The notes under the pieces: model-generated
Seen by the model: the letters and a program-made list of their open reading frames with translations, nothing else
Told to the model about the DNA's origin: nothing
Databases searched by the model: none
From: Gemmatimonadota bacterium
Lineage (GTDB): Bacteria > Gemmatimonadota > Gemmatimonadetes > Gemmatimonadales > Gemmatimonadaceae
Reading direction: 5' to 3'
NCBI GenBank assembly: GCA_031127085.1
Contig: JARIEY010000014.1
Coordinates: 1-32,275 of the forward strand
Length of the DNA stretch: 32,275 nt
Translations under genes and position numbers: made by a program
Shown here: positions 8,653 through 22,370 of the stretch, piece after piece
Numbering within the stretch: position 1 is the first letter of the stretch
How the letters are laid out: each line of letters begins with the position of its first letter

Positions 8653-10968
8653 ATGCGCCTCCGCTCTCTCGCACTCACCCTCGCCCTCCCCCTCGCCGCC
8701 GCCGGCGCCCAGGGCCACAAGCAACTCACCCCCGCCGACTACGACCGCGCCGTCAGAATGCTCGGCCCGGCGGTGAACCCGCTGCTCGTGGGCGGCCAGG
8801 TGAACCCCACCTGGACCCCGGACGGCAAGTTCTACTACCGGGCCACGCGCATTGACGGCACCAGCTGGGTGCTCGTGGACCCGGCCAAAAAGAAGTCGGC
8901 CCCGCTCTTCGACCACGCAAAGTTGGCGGCCGCCGTTAGTTCGGCGTCAGGGGCCAGCTTCACGGCCTCCACCCTCCCCTTCATCGCCATCGACCGGTCA
9001 GCCAAAGGCGATTCGATCACGTTCAATGCTGCATCAAAACGCTACACCTGCGCGCTTAAAGCGTATAGCTGCAAGCAGATAGGCGAAGCCACCAACACGG
9101 TCTTCCCGGGCATGGGCGGGCGCCGCGGCGTCCGGACCCCGGAGGTCCTGAGCCCGGACGGCAAGCGCGCCGCATTCATTAGAGAGTGGAACCTCTGGGT
9201 CCGCGATGTCGCCACCGGCGCCGCCACCCAGCTCACCACCGACGGCACCACCAACTTCGGTTATGCCACTGACAATGCGGGATGGGTCCACTCCAACCGC
9301 GCCATCCTCAAGTGGTCGCCCGACAGCAAGAAGATCGCCACCCAGCAGCAGGACGACCGCCGGCTCTCCGACTTCCATATGGTCCGCTACCAGGTGGGCG
9401 CCCCCCGCCTGGAATCGTGGAAGTACCCGTTCCCCGGCGACTCGGTGGTCAGCCGCATCCACCGCGTGGTCATCGACGTCGACAGCAAGACGGTGGTCCG
9501 ACTCAAGATGGCGCCCGACTTCCACCGCGCCATGCTGGGCGACGACATCTCCATGGACGACCTCCAGTGGAACCCCGACGGCTCGATGCTCGCCATCGCC
9601 TCCACCCCGCGCGACCACAAGTCGGCCACGCTGCGCATCGCCAACGCGGTCACCGGCGAGGTGCGCGACCTGTTCAAGGAGTCGGTCAGCACCCACTTCG
9701 AATCCATCACCGGCTACCGCGTGCTCTGGAACACCAACGAGCTCGTCTGGAACTCGCAGCGCGACAACTGGAGCCAGCTCTACCTGTACGACCTGACCGC
9801 CGGCACGCTCAAGCACCAGATCACCACCGGCGAAGGACCGGTGAGCGAGATCGTGCACGTCGATGAAAAGGCGCGCACCATCACGTACATGGCGCAGGGG
9901 CGCGTCCCCGGGCAGGACCCGTACCTGGCCCACGCCTTCCGCATCGCGCTCGACGGCAAGAGCTCGGCGGTGCTCCTCACCCCCGACGTGGGCACGCACA
10001 CCATCAAGCTGTCGCCCGACAATAAGTATCTTATTGATACTTATTCGACCGCCGACACGCCGCCGGTCTCCGCGCTGCGCGACGCCAAGGGGGCGCTGGT
10101 GCTCGCCCTCGAGCGCGCCGACATCAGCAAGCTGGTGGCCACGGGGTGGAAGCCGCCGATCCTGTTCAGCGTCAAGGCGGCCGATGGCACCACCGACATC
10201 TACGGCCAGCTCTTCCGCCCCACCAACTTTGACAGCACCAAGAAGTACCCGATCATCAACAACGCCTACCCGGGACCGCAGGCGGGGTCCGTTGGAAGCC
10301 GCAGCTTCGCCGCGGCCCGAGGCGACAAGCAGGCGCTCGCCGAGTTGGGCTTTATTGTGGTGAGCATCGATGGACGCGGGAGCGGCCCGGGACGCAGCAA
10401 GGCGTTCCACGACCACTACTACGGCGCCATGGGACGCGACAACACGCTCCCCGATCAGGTGGCCGGCATGCAGAACCTGGCCAAGCGCTACGCGTGGATC
10501 GACATCGACAAGGCCGCGATGTGGGGGCACAGCGGCGGCGGCTTCATTACGGCCGACGCGATGTTCCGCTACCCCGACTTCTTCAAGGTCGGCATCAGCG
10601 AGTCGGGCAATCACGACCAGCGCAACTACGAAGACGACTGGGGCGAGCGCTACCAAGGCCTGCTGGTGAAGGGGATCGACGGCGGTCAGGATTCCTACAA
10701 CCAGGAAGCCAACCAGACGCTCGCCGCCAACCTCAAGGGCAAGCTGCTACTCGCCCACGGCACGGCCGACGACAACGTGCCGGTGGACAACACCTTCCTC
10801 GTGGTGGACGCGCTCATCAAGGCGGGGAAAGACTTTGACCTGCTGCTGATTCCCAATGCGGCGCATGGGTACGGGGCCGCATCCAACTACATGATGCGGC
10901 GGCGGTGGGACTACTTTGTCACCCACCTTATGGGCGCTATTCCACCAAAAGAATTCGTCATTAGATAG
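8653..10968 (+). CDS. Secreted S9-family peptidase (DPP-IV-like)
   Basis: A 771-residue protein. An N-terminal signal peptide (MRLRSLALTLALPLAAAGAQ) indicates export. Residues about 45-480 form the beta-propeller typical of dipeptidyl-peptidase IV N-terminal regions, with repeated blades such as LKWSPDSKKIA. The C-terminal alpha/beta hydrolase carries nucleophile GHSGGG (Ser627), the acid in GTADDNV (Asp706) and NAAHGYG (His738), so the catalytic triad is intact. The family removes X-Pro or X-Ala dipeptides from peptides, here probably in the periplasm for peptide nutrition. It is divergent from the DUF2075-type gene (129 bp apart). Its stop codon lies inside the first copy of the repeat that punctuates the downstream toxin-antitoxin array. 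An AT-rich palindrome within the gene is reported separately. Confidence 0.93.
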   Translation: MRLRSLALTLALPLAAAGAQGHKQLTPADYDRAVRMLGPAVNPLLVGGQVNPTWTPDGKFYYRATRIDGTSWVLVDPAKKKSAPLFDHAKLAAAVSSASGASFTASTLPFIAIDRSAKGDSITFNAASKRYTCALKAYSCKQIGEATNTVFPGMGGRRGVRTPEVLSPDGKRAAFIREWNLWVRDVATGAATQLTTDGTTNFGYATDNAGWVHSNRAILKWSPDSKKIATQQQDDRRLSDFHMVRYQVGAPRLESWKYPFPGDSVVSRIHRVVIDVDSKTVVRLKMAPDFHRAMLGDDISMDDLQWNPDGSMLAIASTPRDHKSATLRIANAVTGEVRDLFKESVSTHFESITGYRVLWNTNELVWNSQRDNWSQLYLYDLTAGTLKHQITTGEGPVSEIVHVDEKARTITYMAQGRVPGQDPYLAHAFRIALDGKSSAVLLTPDVGTHTIKLSPDNKYLIDTYSTADTPPVSALRDAKGALVLALERADISKLVATGWKPPILFSVKAADGTTDIYGQLFRPTNFDSTKKYPIINNAYPGPQAGSVGSRSFAAARGDKQALAELGFIVVSIDGRGSGPGRSKAFHDHYYGAMGRDNTLPDQVAGMQNLAKRYAWIDIDKAAMWGHSGGGFITADAMFRYPDFFKVGISESGNHDQRNYEDDWGERYQGLLVKGIDGGQDSYNQEANQTLAANLKGKLLLAHGTADDNVPVDNTFLVVDALIKAGKDFDLLLIPNAAHGYGAASNYMMRRRWDYFVTHLMGAIPPKEFVIR
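10021..10045. repeat. Perfect AT-rich inverted repeat inside the peptidase gene
   Basis: Two 10-nt arms, AATAAGTATC and GATACTTATT, are perfect reverse complements around a 5-nt loop TTATT. They encode part of NKYLIDTYS in the propeller domain. The stretch uses AT-ending codons in a gene that otherwise strongly prefers G or C at third positions. Confidence 0.8.
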
Positions 10969-11113
10969 ACAACAGAGAGACTACAGAGAGACAACAGAGA
11001 GACTACAGAGGGGCACTCCGGATTGAGGGGGTGCCCTTCTGCCATCCGCCATCTGCTGTCTGCCATCACCTTGCCGCGCACAAATGGTTGGTGGTGCAAT
11101 AAAACGGTGACGG
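10965..11113 (+). repeat. Inter-cassette repeat, copy 1
   Basis: A 149-bp element beginning at the peptidase stop codon. It has four 11-bp direct repeats (consensus AGAGACDACAG). A hairpin follows, with stem GGGCACTCC (11011-11019) pairing with GGGGTGCCC (11028-11036) and loop GGATTGAG. Flanking AGAG/TTCT pairs extend the stem to 13 bp. A 7-bp periodic stretch of TGCCATC-like units comes next. The 28-bp 3' core (11086-11113) starts GGTTGGTGGTGCAAT and ends GGTGACGG. Copies follow at 11687, 12602 and 13440 in the same orientation. Confidence 0.85.
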
Positions 11114-11670: not shown

Positions 11671-11686
11671 ACTGGCGGGTGGAGTG

Positions 11687-11816
11687 AGAGACGACAGAGA
11701 GACAACAGAGAATCAATAGAGAAACGACAGAGGGCACTCCGGATTGAGGGGGTGCCTTTCGTTTGTCTGCCGCCTGCCGCAATCGAAGGGTTGGTGGTGC
11801 AATCATTTGGTGACGG
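11687..11816 (+). repeat. Inter-cassette repeat, copy 2
   Basis: A 130-bp element with the same order as copy 1. It has four 11-bp units (11687-11730) and a hairpin with stem AGGGCACTCC pairing across 11731-11758 (two G-T pairs) with the same loop GGATTGAG. A T-richer tail (CTTTCGTTTG) could serve termination. The 28-bp core at 11789-11816 starts GGTTGGTGGTGCAAT and ends GGTGACGG. About 100 bp without a gene follow before the HigB promoter. Confidence 0.85.
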
Positions 11817-11913
11817 TGCGGGACTGAGTTTGTTGCGGATTGGTGTATGTCTGCAATCTTTGCATTCCGTCACGCGCGTTGCGCAGCCACCGGCTGGTGT
11901 CGCCGGGCGCGGC

Positions 11914-11942
11914 TTGCCGTCTTATACAATTTATTGTATCAT
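11914..11942 (+). promoter_or_regulatory. Promoter and operator of the HigBA module
   Basis: TTGCCG (11914-11919), a 17-nt spacer, then TATCAT (11937-11942). The spacer holds a 16-bp palindrome ATACAA-4 nt-TTGTAT (11924-11939). Five nucleotides separate the -10 from the ATG at 11948, which implies a leaderless transcript. The palindrome is a likely binding site for the downstream Xre antitoxin (inference). Confidence 0.55.
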
Positions 11943-11947
11943 ATACC

Positions 11948-12283
11948 ATGACCCTGAAGCGCGTCTTCTGGGTCGGATCGTCACGGCGCACAGCGCGTGA
12001 GCTGCCGGCAGAGACACGCCTGCAGCTTGGCCGTGACCTGTATCAAGTGCAACTGGGAAGGTCGCCGTCCAGTTGGCGACCGATGAGCTCCATCGGACTC
12101 GGCGTGATTGAGTTGCGCGTGAGCGTTGCCGGGGAGTTTCGCCTGCTGTACGTCGCAAGGTTTGCCGAAGGTATCTACGTGCTTCACGTGTTCCACAAGA
12201 AGCGTCGCAAGACCTCTCCACTTGACCTCGACGTGGCGCGTGTGCGCTTTCGGATGGCCTGTCGCATGCACGCGGAGATGTGA
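11948..12283 (+). CDS. higB: HigB-type toxin (phage-derived Gp49-like, RelE superfamily)
   Basis: A 111-residue basic protein. The pattern RVFWVGSSRRTARELP, then IGLGVIELRV, GEFRLLYVARF and YVLHVFHKKRRKT, is characteristic of the Gp49-like/HigB group of RelE-fold toxins, which cut mRNA on the ribosome. The FRLLYVARF and VLHVFHKK strands with the terminal basic cluster are the conserved core. Toxin-first gene order is usual for HigBA. I choose the ATG at 11948, not the open frame upstream, because it lies just after the promoter and matches family length. The antitoxin gene begins 3 bp after the stop. Confidence 0.88.
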   Translation: MTLKRVFWVGSSRRTARELPAETRLQLGRDLYQVQLGRSPSSWRPMSSIGLGVIELRVSVAGEFRLLYVARFAEGIYVLHVFHKKRRKTSPLDLDVARVRFRMACRMHAEM

Positions 12284-12595: not shown

Positions 12596-12601
12596 CTGCA
12601 G

Positions 12602-12754
12602 AGAAACGACAGAGAGACTACAGAAAGACAACAGAGAAACTACAGAGGGCACTCCGGATTGATGGGGTGCCCTTCGTTCGTTCTTGCTCTCGTGTCTCAG
12701 CGCCCGCCGGCGGCGCGCGATCGTTGGGTTATTCGCGCAATGAAACGGTGACGG
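12602..12754 (+). repeat. Inter-cassette repeat, copy 3
   Basis: A 153-bp element with four 11-bp units (12602-12645), the hairpin GGGCACTCC (12647-12655)/GGGGTGCCC (12664-12672) with loop GGATTGAT, and a longer, more variable middle. The core at 12727-12754 is the most diverged of the full copies in its first half (GGGTTATTCGCGCAAT) but keeps GAAACGGTGACGG. Confidence 0.83.
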
Positions 12755-12834: not shown

Positions 12835-13128
12835 ATGGATGAGTTTGCGTGGGATGACATCAAGTCGGAACGCAATCTGGAACGCCGCGGCTTCGACTTT
12901 GAGTACGCAACGCGAGTGTTTCGTGGGCCAGTGATTGTCCGCGAGGACCGTCGCCGCGAATACGGCGAGGATCGACTCATAGCGCTGGGCGTCGTCGATG
13001 GCGTCAACCTCACCGTTGTCTACACCGATCGTGTGGAGCTCGGTCGCCCAGTGCGCCGCATCATCTCTGCGCGACACAGCAACCGACAGGAGCGTGCCGA
13101 ATATGGCGACTGTATATCGAAGGGCTGA
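12835..13128 (+). CDS. brnT: BrnT-family toxin
   Basis: A 97-residue protein. The opening FAWDDIKSERNLERRGFDFE matches the BrnT (DUF497) signature WDxxKxxxNxxKHGxxF. The strands VIVRED, RLIALGVVDG, LTVVYTDR and the terminal RRIISARHSNRQERAEY motif follow. BrnT is a RelE-fold ribosome-independent RNase known from Brucella. The last 26 nt overlap the start of the antitoxin gene, as is common for BrnTA. The ATG is the only start compatible with the conserved N-terminal WD motif. Confidence 0.9.
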   Translation: MDEFAWDDIKSERNLERRGFDFEYATRVFRGPVIVREDRRREYGEDRLIALGVVDGVNLTVVYTDRVELGRPVRRIISARHSNRQERAEYGDCISKG

Positions 13129-13414
13129 TCAACTCGGCCCGGGCCGAATTGACCGCAAACGCGTCCTGCGCATGACGGAAGAAGAGATCATGCGCACCTC
13201 GCCCCCGGAACTGGCGGACCTGCCTGACGACTTCTGGAAGGACGCGGTCGTGGTCGAGCCAATCCTCAAAGAGCCCATCTCGCTGCGCGTCGACGAAGAC
13301 GTGCTGGCCTGGTTCCGCAAATCGGGGCCACGATACCAGACGCGCATGAACGCCGTGCTGCGCCGCTATATGGAAGCAATGACGCGAAAGCCCAAGCGAC
13401 GCGCGGCGCGCTGA
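13103..13414 (+). CDS. brnA: BrnA-family antitoxin
   Basis: A 103-residue protein. The C-terminal half (ISLRVDEDVLAWFRKSGPRYQ, then TRMNAVLRRYME) is the ribbon-helix-helix domain of the BrnA/DUF4415 group. The N-terminal half is acidic around PPELADLPDDFWKDAVVV, the toxin-binding part of this family. The start ATG at 13103 lies inside brnT. Further upstream in-frame starts would overlap more of brnT and add no family residues. BrnA both neutralises BrnT and represses the operon, probably through the 12-bp palindrome upstream of brnT. Confidence 0.88.
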   Translation: MATVYRRADQLGPGRIDRKRVLRMTEEEIMRTSPPELADLPDDFWKDAVVVEPILKEPISLRVDEDVLAWFRKSGPRYQTRMNAVLRRYMEAMTRKPKRRAAR

Positions 13415-19701: not shown

Positions 19702-20007
19702 ATGATCAAAGGATTCGAGTTCGCGGCCGAAGGGCGCACCTACGTGTGCACGCTTGAGGAACGCCGAGGCACGGACGGCGAGTTCTGGTGGTGGTTCTCC
19801 GTCACCGGCGACCAGTCCAGCTACGCCGTGTTTCAGGCGGCTTCGGCGGACACGCGCAGCTCGGTACAGGAACGGGTGCTGCAGTTCTATAACAACCGCG
19901 TCTTCAAGCGCTCGCAGCCGCCCACGCGTGGCGGGCACTGGGGCCGTCGTCCGCCGACCCCGGCCGATGCGGCCGCACCGGCGCCCGATCCCAAGGCCGC
20001 GTCGTAA
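19702..20007 (+). CDS. Hypothetical small protein
   Basis: A 101-residue protein preceded by an AAGGA Shine-Dalgarno 8 nt before the ATG. Residues 1-70 look like a compact alpha/beta domain (MIKGFEFAAEGRTYVCTLEE, FWWWFSVTGD, SSVQERVLQFYNNR) with a cluster of three tryptophans. The last 30 residues are a disordered Pro/Ala/Gly-rich tail. No signal peptide is present. I do not recognise the family. A strong hairpin follows between this gene and the convergent Fic gene, consistent with a single-gene transcript. Confidence 0.75.
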   Translation: MIKGFEFAAEGRTYVCTLEERRGTDGEFWWWFSVTGDQSSYAVFQAASADTRSSVQERVLQFYNNRVFKRSQPPTRGGHWGRRPPTPADAAAPAPDPKAAS

Positions 20008-20061
20008 CGCGCCAGAATCGATAGGCCGCTATCGGATTGGGCGGCCTGGCGGAATCTACGG

Positions 20062-20099
20062 AGAGAGTTGGCACCCGGAATTTGGGTCGCCAGCTCTCT
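20062..20099. terminator. Long hairpin terminator between convergent genes
   Basis: Stem AGAGAGTTGGC/GCCAGCTCTCT (one G-T pair) continues through ACCC/GGGT with a one-base bulge and loop GGAATTT. The plus strand then reads TTGGTGTTTG. It lies between 19702-20007 (+) and 20116-21585 (-) and can serve both. Confidence 0.75.
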
Positions 20100-20115
20100 T
20101 GGTGTTTGTAGCCAG

Positions 20116-21585
20116 TTACTCGTTCGTCTCCGCGCGCTCGAGTGCTCCGACGGTCTGCAGCGGTGGCGGCGAACCCCCCACGCGTGGGGCGGAGGCTTCG
20201 CTGCGAAAGCGCGCGCGCCACGCCATGACCTCTGCCGGACGAAGCTGGTATCGCAGCGCCGACGCATCGTCAAGATTGAGCATCTCGGTCATCGCGATCT
20301 TCGCGAATGCCTCCAGATCGTCTGCCCCGACGCCAGATGCCGCGGCGGCGGCGCGCACAAGGCTGGCCGTTGGTGCCTCGCCAGCGCGGACCGTCTCGCG
20401 GAGCACCTCGCGCAGATGGGCACGGTAGCGCAGGCGCAGCGGATCCGGCTGATGGACGGACTCGCGGACCACGCGATACTGTGCGCATGACCGCTCATAC
20501 GCCCATGCGAACACGTCGCGCAACAGATCCACGTTGCGCGCTTCGTAGACTGCCAGCGTGCCTTGGATGTACGCGCGCTCGGGGACATCCACGAACGACA
20601 GGGGACTCAGGTTCGCGTGAAGTAATGGCCAGTTGGCTGCGACGCGCGACGTGCGTTTGTTGATGTCGACGAACGGTTGCAGATATGGCACGTGGACCAT
20701 GAGGAAGAACGCCTGTTCCAACGGATCGGGAATGGCGCTGACCGTTTCGATGATCCGGTCATGGCAAGCGCGCACGATCTGGGGAATCGCGGTGGGGGTG
20801 TACCTGGTGCCCGTGATCTCGACGGCGCGTTCGCGCACGCGGCCTACATCGGCCGGGTCCTTCAGGAGGTTTTCGGACAGCGCCCCGTGCAGGACTCGGA
20901 GGAGCATGGGAGGGAACTGCGGCGCATCGGCCGTGTCGACCAGATATTCGATGGCGGCCTTGTGGTTCAGGATCATCTGCGCTTCTTGCGCGTCCTTGCC
21001 TTCCGCCTGTAACCCGAACTCCAACAGGTTCCGCGTGTCAAGCCGACTGTAGGTATTGCCTTCCAATCGACTTGACGCCCACGAGAGGTCGATCAGCAGT
21101 CTTCCCAGGATATCGCGGGCGAACGTATCCGCAGGGCGCGTGTCATCCGGGGTCCGCCCCAGCTCGTGGAGCCGGCGTCGCATACCCACCGGGAGATACC
21201 ACGTCTTTTCGGGGCGATACGAAAACAGCAATTCTTGGTCGTACCCGACCGGCTGGCGCTGCGTAATGGGTCGCGTCACGAGTGCTTGCGCGGCGCGTCC
21301 GCGGGCCGTCATCGGGACCTCGTCCGCTCCGGCTTCCGGCGGGACTTCGTCCGGGGTTATAGCGCGATAGGTTGCCGCAGGGCCACCCTTCTCGGGTTTG
21401 ACGCGTCCACGTGCGGCTAACTCTCCGAGGCGGCGGAGTAGCGTGCGAGGTTCGATATGCCGGCCATACGCCGCGTGATAGGCCTCCCCAAGCGCCACTC
21501 GGCCAATGCCGTCAGGATGCCGCTGCACCAGGGCGGCGATCTGGTCTAGATCGGCAGAGATTTGCTCGCGTGTCGGTCTCGTCAA
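20116..21585 (-). CDS. Fic-family protein lacking the catalytic histidine
   Basis: A 489-residue protein. Residues 1-75 are a winged-helix-like segment (VALGEAYHAAYGRHIEPRTLLRRLGELAARG). An inhibitory helix motif SSRLEGN, matching the (S/T)xxxE(G/N) autoinhibition sequence, lies near residue 170. The Fic loop reads HVPYLQPFVDINKRTSRVAAN: Gln303 stands where the catalytic His of HPFxxGN(G/K)R belongs, while Asn309, Lys310, Arg311 and Arg314 are kept. Related PYLQPF-type proteins form a recognisable group. Adenylylation by the normal mechanism is therefore doubtful, and nucleotide binding, another chemistry or DNA-linked regulation are alternatives. The upstream region carries seven phased repeats, which hints at self-regulation by the N-terminal domain (inference). 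Confidence 0.85.
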   Translation of the reverse strand: MTRPTREQISADLDQIAALVQRHPDGIGRVALGEAYHAAYGRHIEPRTLLRRLGELAARGRVKPEKGGPAATYRAITPDEVPPEAGADEVPMTARGRAAQALVTRPITQRQPVGYDQELLFSYRPEKTWYLPVGMRRRLHELGRTPDDTRPADTFARDILGRLLIDLSWASSRLEGNTYSRLDTRNLLEFGLQAEGKDAQEAQMILNHKAAIEYLVDTADAPQFPPMLLRVLHGALSENLLKDPADVGRVRERAVEITGTRYTPTAIPQIVRACHDRIIETVSAIPDPLEQAFFLMVHVPYLQPFVDINKRTSRVAANWPLLHANLSPLSFVDVPERAYIQGTLAVYEARNVDLLRDVFAWAYERSCAQYRVVRESVHQPDPLRLRYRAHLREVLRETVRAGEAPTASLVRAAAAASGVGADDLEAFAKIAMTEMLNLDDASALRYQLRPAEVMAWRARFRSEASAPRVGGSPPPLQTVGALERAETNE

Positions 21586-21623
21586 GGCGATACGATGCTG
21601 AGAGGTTTCTGAGTGCGCTGGTG

Positions 21624-21750
21624 GTCACCTGGCCAGTGATCACGTCATGTATTCTACCTTACGGTCACACAATCCTACTACACGACATATAAATTGCTAT
21701 CGCGACACATACTAGACTTTCTCGTCACATAATGTCACTTCTGGTCACAT
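21624..21750. repeat. Seven iteron-like repeats in an exact 20-bp register
   Basis: Heptamers start at 21624, 21644, 21664, 21684, 21704, 21724 and 21744: GTCACCT, GTCATGT, GTCACAC, GACATAT, GACACAT, GTCACAT and GTCACAT. Positions 1, 3 and 4 are invariant (G, C, A). In six of the seven units the heptamer is followed by an A-rich trinucleotide. An extra GTCAC at 21734 sits half a period away. The array fills the AT-rich 323-bp gap between the Fic gene and the Lrp gene and begins 39 bp before the Fic start. It looks like a multi-site operator or replication-type iterons. Confidence 0.75.
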
Positions 21751-21859
21751 AAAGCAACGGGCGAGCGGCTGCCTGACACAGTGAAGCGGGAATGGAGATT
21801 CTACATGCTTTTGCGCAGAGCCGTTGTACACCTGAAATACACAGCACCGCATTATAACG

Positions 21860-21902
21860 ATATCTTTGTGATATTGCAGACAGACTAACGATTCATTAGT
21901 CT
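21860..21902 (+). promoter_or_regulatory. Two palindromes in front of the Lrp/AsnC gene
   Basis: ATATC-5 nt-GATAT at 21860-21874 and AGACTAA-7 nt-TTAGTCT at 21882-21902 are both perfect in the arms. The second ends 6 nt before the ATG at 21909. Lrp/AsnC proteins bind such AT-rich palindromes and often control themselves, so these are probable autoregulatory sites. A TATAAC at 21853 could be a -10 but lacks a matching -35. Confidence 0.5.
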
Positions 21903-21908
21903 ATACAG

Positions 21909-22370
21909 ATGGACACGATTGATAGACGCCTTGTCATCCGCCTGCAGCATGCCGGCCGCGAAACATGGGCCAAGCTCGGTGATTCCCTGGGGCTCACGGG
22001 ACCTGCAATCGCCGAGCGGGTACACAAACTCCAGCAAGTTGGTGTTCTTAAAGGGTTTGCGGCCTTGGTATCGCCTGATGCGGTGGGGGTGACCGTCACT
22101 GCATTCATTGGTGTGTCCATGGAGCGTCCCGCGCTCCGCGATGTCTTCTTGAGTCGGGTGGCGGCGATCCCCGAAGTTCAAGAATGCCACGCCGTGACCG
22201 GAGACGACGACTTTCTGCTGAAGGTGCGCTGCCGCAGTCCGCTCGACCTGGACCGGGTGGTCAGCCAGGAACTCAAAGGAACGCCCGGCGTGGTGCGCGC
22301 CCGTACGACGGTTGTACTGCGGACCACCAAGGAGACGACTTTCGTGCCTATTCCTCCGGATGTCGGGTAG
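21909..22370 (+). CDS. Lrp/AsnC-family transcriptional regulator
   Basis: A 153-residue protein. The N-terminal winged helix-turn-helix (DTIDRRLVIRLQHAGRETWA, then LGLTGPAIAERVHKLQQVGV) is followed by the RAM ligand-binding domain (VTVTAFIGVSM, VQECHAVTGDDDFLLKVRC). In that domain the GDDDFLLK motif is the family hallmark. Such proteins form octamers and sense amino acids or related small molecules. The gene lies 9 bp upstream of the NamZ-like gene, so it probably controls cell-wall or amino-sugar use together with itself. The length is normal and the domain order intact. Confidence 0.92.
   Translation: MDTIDRRLVIRLQHAGRETWAKLGDSLGLTGPAIAERVHKLQQVGVLKGFAALVSPDAVGVTVTAFIGVSMERPALRDVFLSRVAAIPEVQECHAVTGDDDFLLKVRCRSPLDLDRVVSQELKGTPGVVRARTTVVLRTTKETTFVPIPPDVG

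Follow-up and report, generated by a model that had tools for sequence, protein, structure and literature searches.

Upstream of a fic gene, in the region that separates it from a divergent lrp gene, seven heptamers resembling GTCACAT follow one another at steps of two helical turns, and the locus raises the question of which protein reads them and which gene they serve. The window analyzed here is the whole stretch of 32,275 nucleotides of contig JARIEY010000014.1 from a Gemmatimonadota bacterium (family Gemmatimonadaceae). The elements of the intergenic region and the gene on its far side are the following.

21624 to 21750, minus strand: seven half-sites, proposed fic operator; plus-strand consensus G(T/A)CA(C/T)AT, which is ATGTGAC on the fic strand
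21734 to 21738, minus strand: eighth half-site, GTCAC, 10 bp (one turn) past copy 6 and 10 bp ahead of copy 7
21709 to 21738, minus strand: promoter-like site on the fic strand, within the array (GTGACA, 18 bp, TAGTAT; 9 of 12 positions)
21909 to 22370, plus strand: divergent Lrp/AsnC gene, whose orthologues have no array

The earlier note had described heptamers at exact 20-bp steps with three unchanging positions and diverged spacers, and all of this was confirmed. The heptamers start at 21624, 21644, 21664, 21684, 21704, 21724, and 21744 and read, in order, GTCACCT, GTCATGT, GTCACAC, GACATAT, GACACAT, GTCACAT, and GTCACAT, with G at position 1, C at position 3, and A at position 4 invariant across the seven copies. 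Mean pairwise identity is 75% for the heptamers versus 34% for the 13-bp spacers, which are little more alike than chance. The top seven-row periodic signal of the intergenic region (21586 to 21908) was the array itself (start 21624, period 20, score 72.8), a score that none of 1,000 dinucleotide-preserving shuffles equaled (mean 38.6, standard deviation 2.5, maximum 51.5) with any period from 12 to 40 permitted. When the whole window was scanned in 323-bp tiles, the best tile not overlapping the array scored 53.9. An inverted half-site is also found within the palindrome GTGATCAC near 21636. The promoter-like site is the only one detected between 20000 and 22400, where 0.8 would be expected by chance, and is weak. 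In a pattern search of the same genome for paired heptamers, the closest matches were those of the array, and all other hits needed two mismatches (the assembly is 82% complete).

The array stands 39 bp ahead of the TTG start of fic (position 21585, minus strand) and 159 bp from the start of lrp, and comparison with related genomes indicates to which of the two it belongs. In a same-genus genome (G007), the homologue of 19702 to 20007 is followed directly by lrp with no fic gene between them, which delimits the following segment.

20008 to 21884, no strand assigned: approximate fic-plus-array insert, missing from G007

The array is absent upstream of orthologous lrp genes with 73 to 75% identical DNA. 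In another genome (G006), a fic orthologue 69% identical to that of the window sits at another place and is still preceded by five half-sites, spaced 20, 20, 20, and 19 bp apart. Because the G007 junction lacks fic, the lrp orthologues lack the array, and the G006 orthologue retains one elsewhere, the array belongs to fic and moves with it. A second orthologue has four half-sites, at 20, 20, and 21 bp. The nearest Fic orthologues, which could have lacked the repeats and thereby refuted the earlier note, thus hold four to five same-orientation copies 19 to 21 bp apart with diverged spacers. Before one Fic orthologue (L019, positions 60 to 135), a 10-bp tandem repeat of TGCGGCACGA grades into half-sites phased at about 20 bp nearer the gene.

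We examined about 140 related genes across bacteria and observed similar helix-phased arrays in the own promoters of most of them; Fic orthologues in the same genus and family are preceded by arrays, often of other sequence. Upstream of 91 loci, direct 7-mer pairs numbered 1,000 versus 144 expected, with peaks at lags of 10, 20 to 21, 30 to 33, and 40 to 42 bp. By exact 7-mers alone, z exceeded 3 in 35 of the 91 loci, and a clear array is not present in every locus. Across 131 loci, half-site distances cluster at multiples of 10.5 bp for same, convergent, and divergent pairs (R of 0.52 to 0.57), Rayleigh values being descriptive here and not true probabilities, given that neither pairs from one locus nor related loci are independent observations. 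After thinning to 25 loci, one from each cluster at 60% identity, R was 0.39; control tiles drawn 200 times from these loci gave a mean of 0.14 and at most 0.36. This helical phasing across the family supports the earlier proposal that selection keeps proteins arrayed along one side of the helix.

The half-sites concentrate 25 to 150 bp before the start codon, as assigned by rule, and reach nine or more per locus. Promoter-like sequences were detected at 41 of 134 loci, compared with 14 after mononucleotide shuffling; in 34 of these 41, the sequence overlaps a half-site. Family operator motifs include GCGACA, GCGCCA, GTGCCA, TGGTCA, TATCGACA, and TTACxGTAA, with AATCTGCTCA in a sister clade. 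In six sister-clade genomes of 5.8 to 7.5 Mb, two copies of TCTGCTCA lie within 30 bp of each other nowhere but upstream of fic; an unrelated pair is found elsewhere in one more genome, in which fic itself has a different motif. The members of this sister clade (L145 to L158 and L194 to L198) are wHTH-Fic proteins with QPFEDGNKRTSR and with SSATVRRHL and other helices, and their arrays are built of AATCTGCTCA, CGGCTCA, TTATCA/GATAAGC, or TTGATTC. Several divergent loci in which the rule applied gave no open frame were excluded.

The protein encoded next to the array offers a candidate reader, as its annotated parts indicate.

20116 to 21585, minus strand: fic gene, 489 amino acids, TTG start; N-terminal winged helix and C-terminal Fic domain
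21346 to 21585, minus strand: N-terminal winged-helix domain, residues 1 to 80 (helices 6 to 21, 29 to 40, and 46 to 58; wing strands 62 to 64 and 72 to 75)
21412 to 21453, minus strand: start and body of the recognition helix, residues 45 to 58 (EPRTLLRRLGELAA); residue 45 tracks the variable operator base
21061 to 21063, minus strand: Glu175 codon, the class II inhibitory glutamate (SSRLEGN), kept (from alignment)
20677 to 20679, minus strand: Gln303 codon, at the position of the catalytic His of Fic enzymes (QPFVDINKRTSR) (from alignment)

That the N terminus looks like a winged helix had been guessed from the sequence, and rightly: residues 1 to 76 form a winged helix in the AlphaFold model. 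Since this domain resembles many winged helices about equally (LmrR, Zur, and TtgV, with Z scores of 10 to 11), we do not claim a specific regulator family for it.

The usual half-site of the family is (C/T/G)G-N-CA, and the base N covaries with residue 45 wherever the recognition helix reads xRRTLQRRL or similar, x being residue 45. Asn, Gln, His, or Asp accompanies A (GACA) and Ser, Pro, or Ala accompanies C (GCCA) in 92 of 93 loci, including all 27 loci fetched after the rule had been noticed. The window's own subclade (EPRT, APRT) has GTCA. For Thr, Gly, or Val at residue 45, the operator base is not predicted, and some family members use other motifs with other helices. Counts of this kind are inflated by the relatedness of the loci. 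Residue 45 nevertheless ranked top of 446 protein columns for information on the operator base (0.79 bits; the next column, 0.46), outranking the others although all columns share one history, and it again came first in a thinned set of 34 loci. When the tree was based on the Fic domain only, four to five independent switches agree with the code and none disagree; because switches are few, the phylogenetically independent test reaches only a sign-test P of 0.06 to 0.125. The sister pair L074 and L085 (Paraburkholderia) illustrates the change, their Fic domains being near equal: L074, with Gln, has six GACA sites and one GCCA, and L085, with Pro, has one GACA and ten GCCA. Among close relatives differing at the code position (Ser in L082 and L095, Gln in L099), GACA and GCCA sites occur together in the Ser members, which may reflect a code in transition. 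Given that residue 45 directly precedes helix 46 to 58, the recognition helix of the AlphaFold model, the Fic protein's own winged helix is most likely the reader of the operator, a prediction made from sequence covariation and the model.

The remainder of the protein is a Fic domain by profile (PF02661, 36.6 bits with a cutoff of 24) and by fold, FICD being its closest match (VIA-align Z of 25.4, rmsd of 2.6 Å over 236 residues). The protein does not meet the catalytic His criterion of Fic AMP transferases, HxFx(D/E)GNxxR, and Gln occupies the catalytic His position in all 148 aligned sequences, that of the window included. One search pattern contained this Gln, so that an unbiased count rests on the profile searches, which give 62 of 62 (61 without L156, whose reading frame is doubtful). 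Asp307, Asn309, Arg311, and Arg314 are retained, as is the inhibitory motif (S/T)xxxE(G/N) N-terminal to the Fic core (SSRLEGN, residues 171 to 177), with Glu175 present in 147 of the 148. With this Gln in every member examined, the Fic domain probably functions as a nucleotide-binding switch that performs no transfer chemistry; loss of catalysis and the ligand are both inferred, and a changed chemistry is not excluded.

These observations bear on who binds the array. The earlier note had left the binder as either the Fic protein or the neighboring Lrp protein. Lrp-family proteins wrap DNA over phased sites, and the start of lrp is only 159 bp away, so an Lrp/AsnC protein controlling lrp and perhaps fic from the array had to be considered. 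We regard this as very improbable, given the lrp orthologues that do without the array, the Fic-less G007 junction, the lack of a recurrent Lrp neighbor at other array-bearing Fic loci, and an operator base that follows a residue of Fic. Of the two candidates, Fic is thus the favored one. A host regulator encoded elsewhere, or a nucleoid protein, is also quite improbable: although binding by Fic itself has not been demonstrated, the motif changes with the Fic recognition helix, arrays accompany the gene in different phyla, and the paired sites of the sister clade are confined to the fic promoter. The term "iteron" used in the earlier note fits the repeats in that they are real and, at 20 bp, look iteron-like, but it should not be taken to mean a replication origin. 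That the repeats are replication iterons from an integrated plasmid, or arose by neutral tandem duplication, is hardly credible with near-random spacers and with similar phasing recurring before Fic genes in unrelated motifs, both of which also uphold the earlier rejection of a recent duplication. The immediate neighbors of the array region are fic, lrp, and namZ, with no rep gene among them (annotation for rep did not extend to the rest of the window).

Another alternative accepts Fic as the binder but holds that it activates, or that it stores or silences itself on the DNA by titration without a role at the promoter. The number of sites is beyond the need of simple repression and speaks for this alternative. 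In many proteobacterial members, however, half-sites lie between or over the −35 and −10 elements, like repressor sites, and CccR, the one studied Fic-wHTH protein that we found in the literature, represses its own gene (PMC9755527); we consider this alternative unlikely. Autorepression is suggested by half-sites that overlap or adjoin −35 and −10, by their restriction to the own promoter, and by the example of CccR, but it is inferred and not shown.

The repeats are therefore very probably a landing strip of the neighboring Fic protein, although there are no binding data. We hold with good confidence that the array is the operator of this protein for cooperative autoregulation, probably repression, in the absence of binding or expression data. 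In this model, the N-terminal winged helix would set its recognition helix on each GNCA half-site, and half-sites whole turns apart would line up several Fic proteins along the same face of the promoter, where they may bind cooperatively and regulate the gene that encodes them, most likely by repression. A spacing of whole turns, whatever the orientation, would fit side-by-side contacts of the bulky Fic domains, not one fixed dimer; cooperativity, like binding and the direction of control, is an inference. Differences in motif between family members would arise in part because residue 45 helps set one base, and the Fic domain, with Gln for the catalytic His, probably serves as a nucleotide- or ligand-dependent switch instead of an AMP transferase.

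The family is widespread: at least 571 candidate stretches encoding relatives were found in one genome collection. The gene is present in 14 of 179 genomes of the window's family, and in about one in ten of those sampled from Burkholderiaceae (39 of 398) and Pseudomonadales (41 of 391). Members also occur on plasmids and on ten virus-like contigs, and they are annotated only as "Fic family protein." No conserved partner gene was found among the loci examined; the surroundings of the gene, judged by eye from sequence, are variable, with integrase-like genes (8 loci), HsdM/HsdS-like genes, and phage tail genes among the neighbors. Searches of bacteriophage records returned only two distant Fic-domain matches, and a sister-clade protein used as the query against viruses yielded a single weak match. 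On virus-like contigs (L113 and L117), family members sit beside phage baseplate-like genes (by eye), as if phage cargo. In the six two-copy genomes in which both copies are readable (G067, G206, G336, G433, G505, and G515), the operator motifs of the copies differ in every case, with no test against random pairs. A bolder and only tentative reading is that the gene is a widespread single-gene mobile cassette, its Fic domain, without the catalytic His, having become the part that senses nucleotides in a one-component transcription factor assembling along the promoter of its own gene, and that the DNA code has diversified among cassettes, as it does among phage repressors, to keep co-resident cassettes from silencing each other.

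Elsewhere in the window, an 81-nucleotide noncoding repeat occurs in three copies (10964 to 11044, 11686 to 11766, and 12601 to 12681), each with tandem units of the AGAGAGACAACAGAGAGACTAC type followed by GGGCACTCCGGATTGAGGGGGTGCCC, a terminator-like hairpin. Open reading frames at 11840 to 12283 and 12998 to 13414 resemble, by eye, parts of toxin-antitoxin modules.

If our reading of the array is true, a group now classed as toxins or AMP transferases consists of proteins that lack the catalytic His and regulate themselves by binding DNA, and their protein-DNA code is readable and open to testing one residue at a time. The family would also give a direct route to asking what the Fic fold does without its catalytic His and why one gene carries up to nine operators for itself.

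Our literature search, from which subscription journals were mostly outside the scope, returned no description of this wHTH-Fic family or of operator arrays before Fic genes. Self-repressing Fic proteins are already known from CccR; the phased array, the N-terminal reader, the one-residue code, and the His-to-Gln family appear undescribed in the literature searched. Operators of phased half-sites, as bound by Lrp, AraC-type proteins, and phage repressors, let proteins bind cooperatively along one DNA face and allow operator specificity to diversify. The Fic arrays differ from such operators in that as many as nine or more copies, spaced at 10, 20, 30, and 40 bp whatever their orientation, precede a Fic gene. 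With FICD/HYPE and class II Fic proteins, the window family shares the Fic fold, the N-terminal inhibitory SxxxEGN, and the Asp, Asn, and Arg of the nucleotide site, whereas its catalytic His is replaced by Gln, the Gly of DGN is usually Val or Ile, and a winged helix stands at the N terminus. Matches to SoFic and to PDC-S04 (PADLOC) cover the Fic domain only (E values of 2.6e-10 and 5.8e-08), and the likeness extends to the single-gene setting. SoFic is an anti-phage abortive-infection protein, and the SoFic studied has an active His (H194), with no DNA binding described in that paper (PMC12249575), unlike the window family with its Gln. A known parallel is CccR of Yersinia pseudotuberculosis, in which a Fic domain and a winged helix are likewise combined in one protein that binds and represses its own promoter (PMC9755527), an activity only inferred for the window protein. 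CccR binds as a dimer to a palindromic operator through a C-terminal DNA-binding domain and has a working AMPylation site at H192 (PMC9755527), whereas the window protein has its predicted reader at the N terminus, an array of same-orientation half-sites as its putative operator, and Gln in place of the catalytic His.
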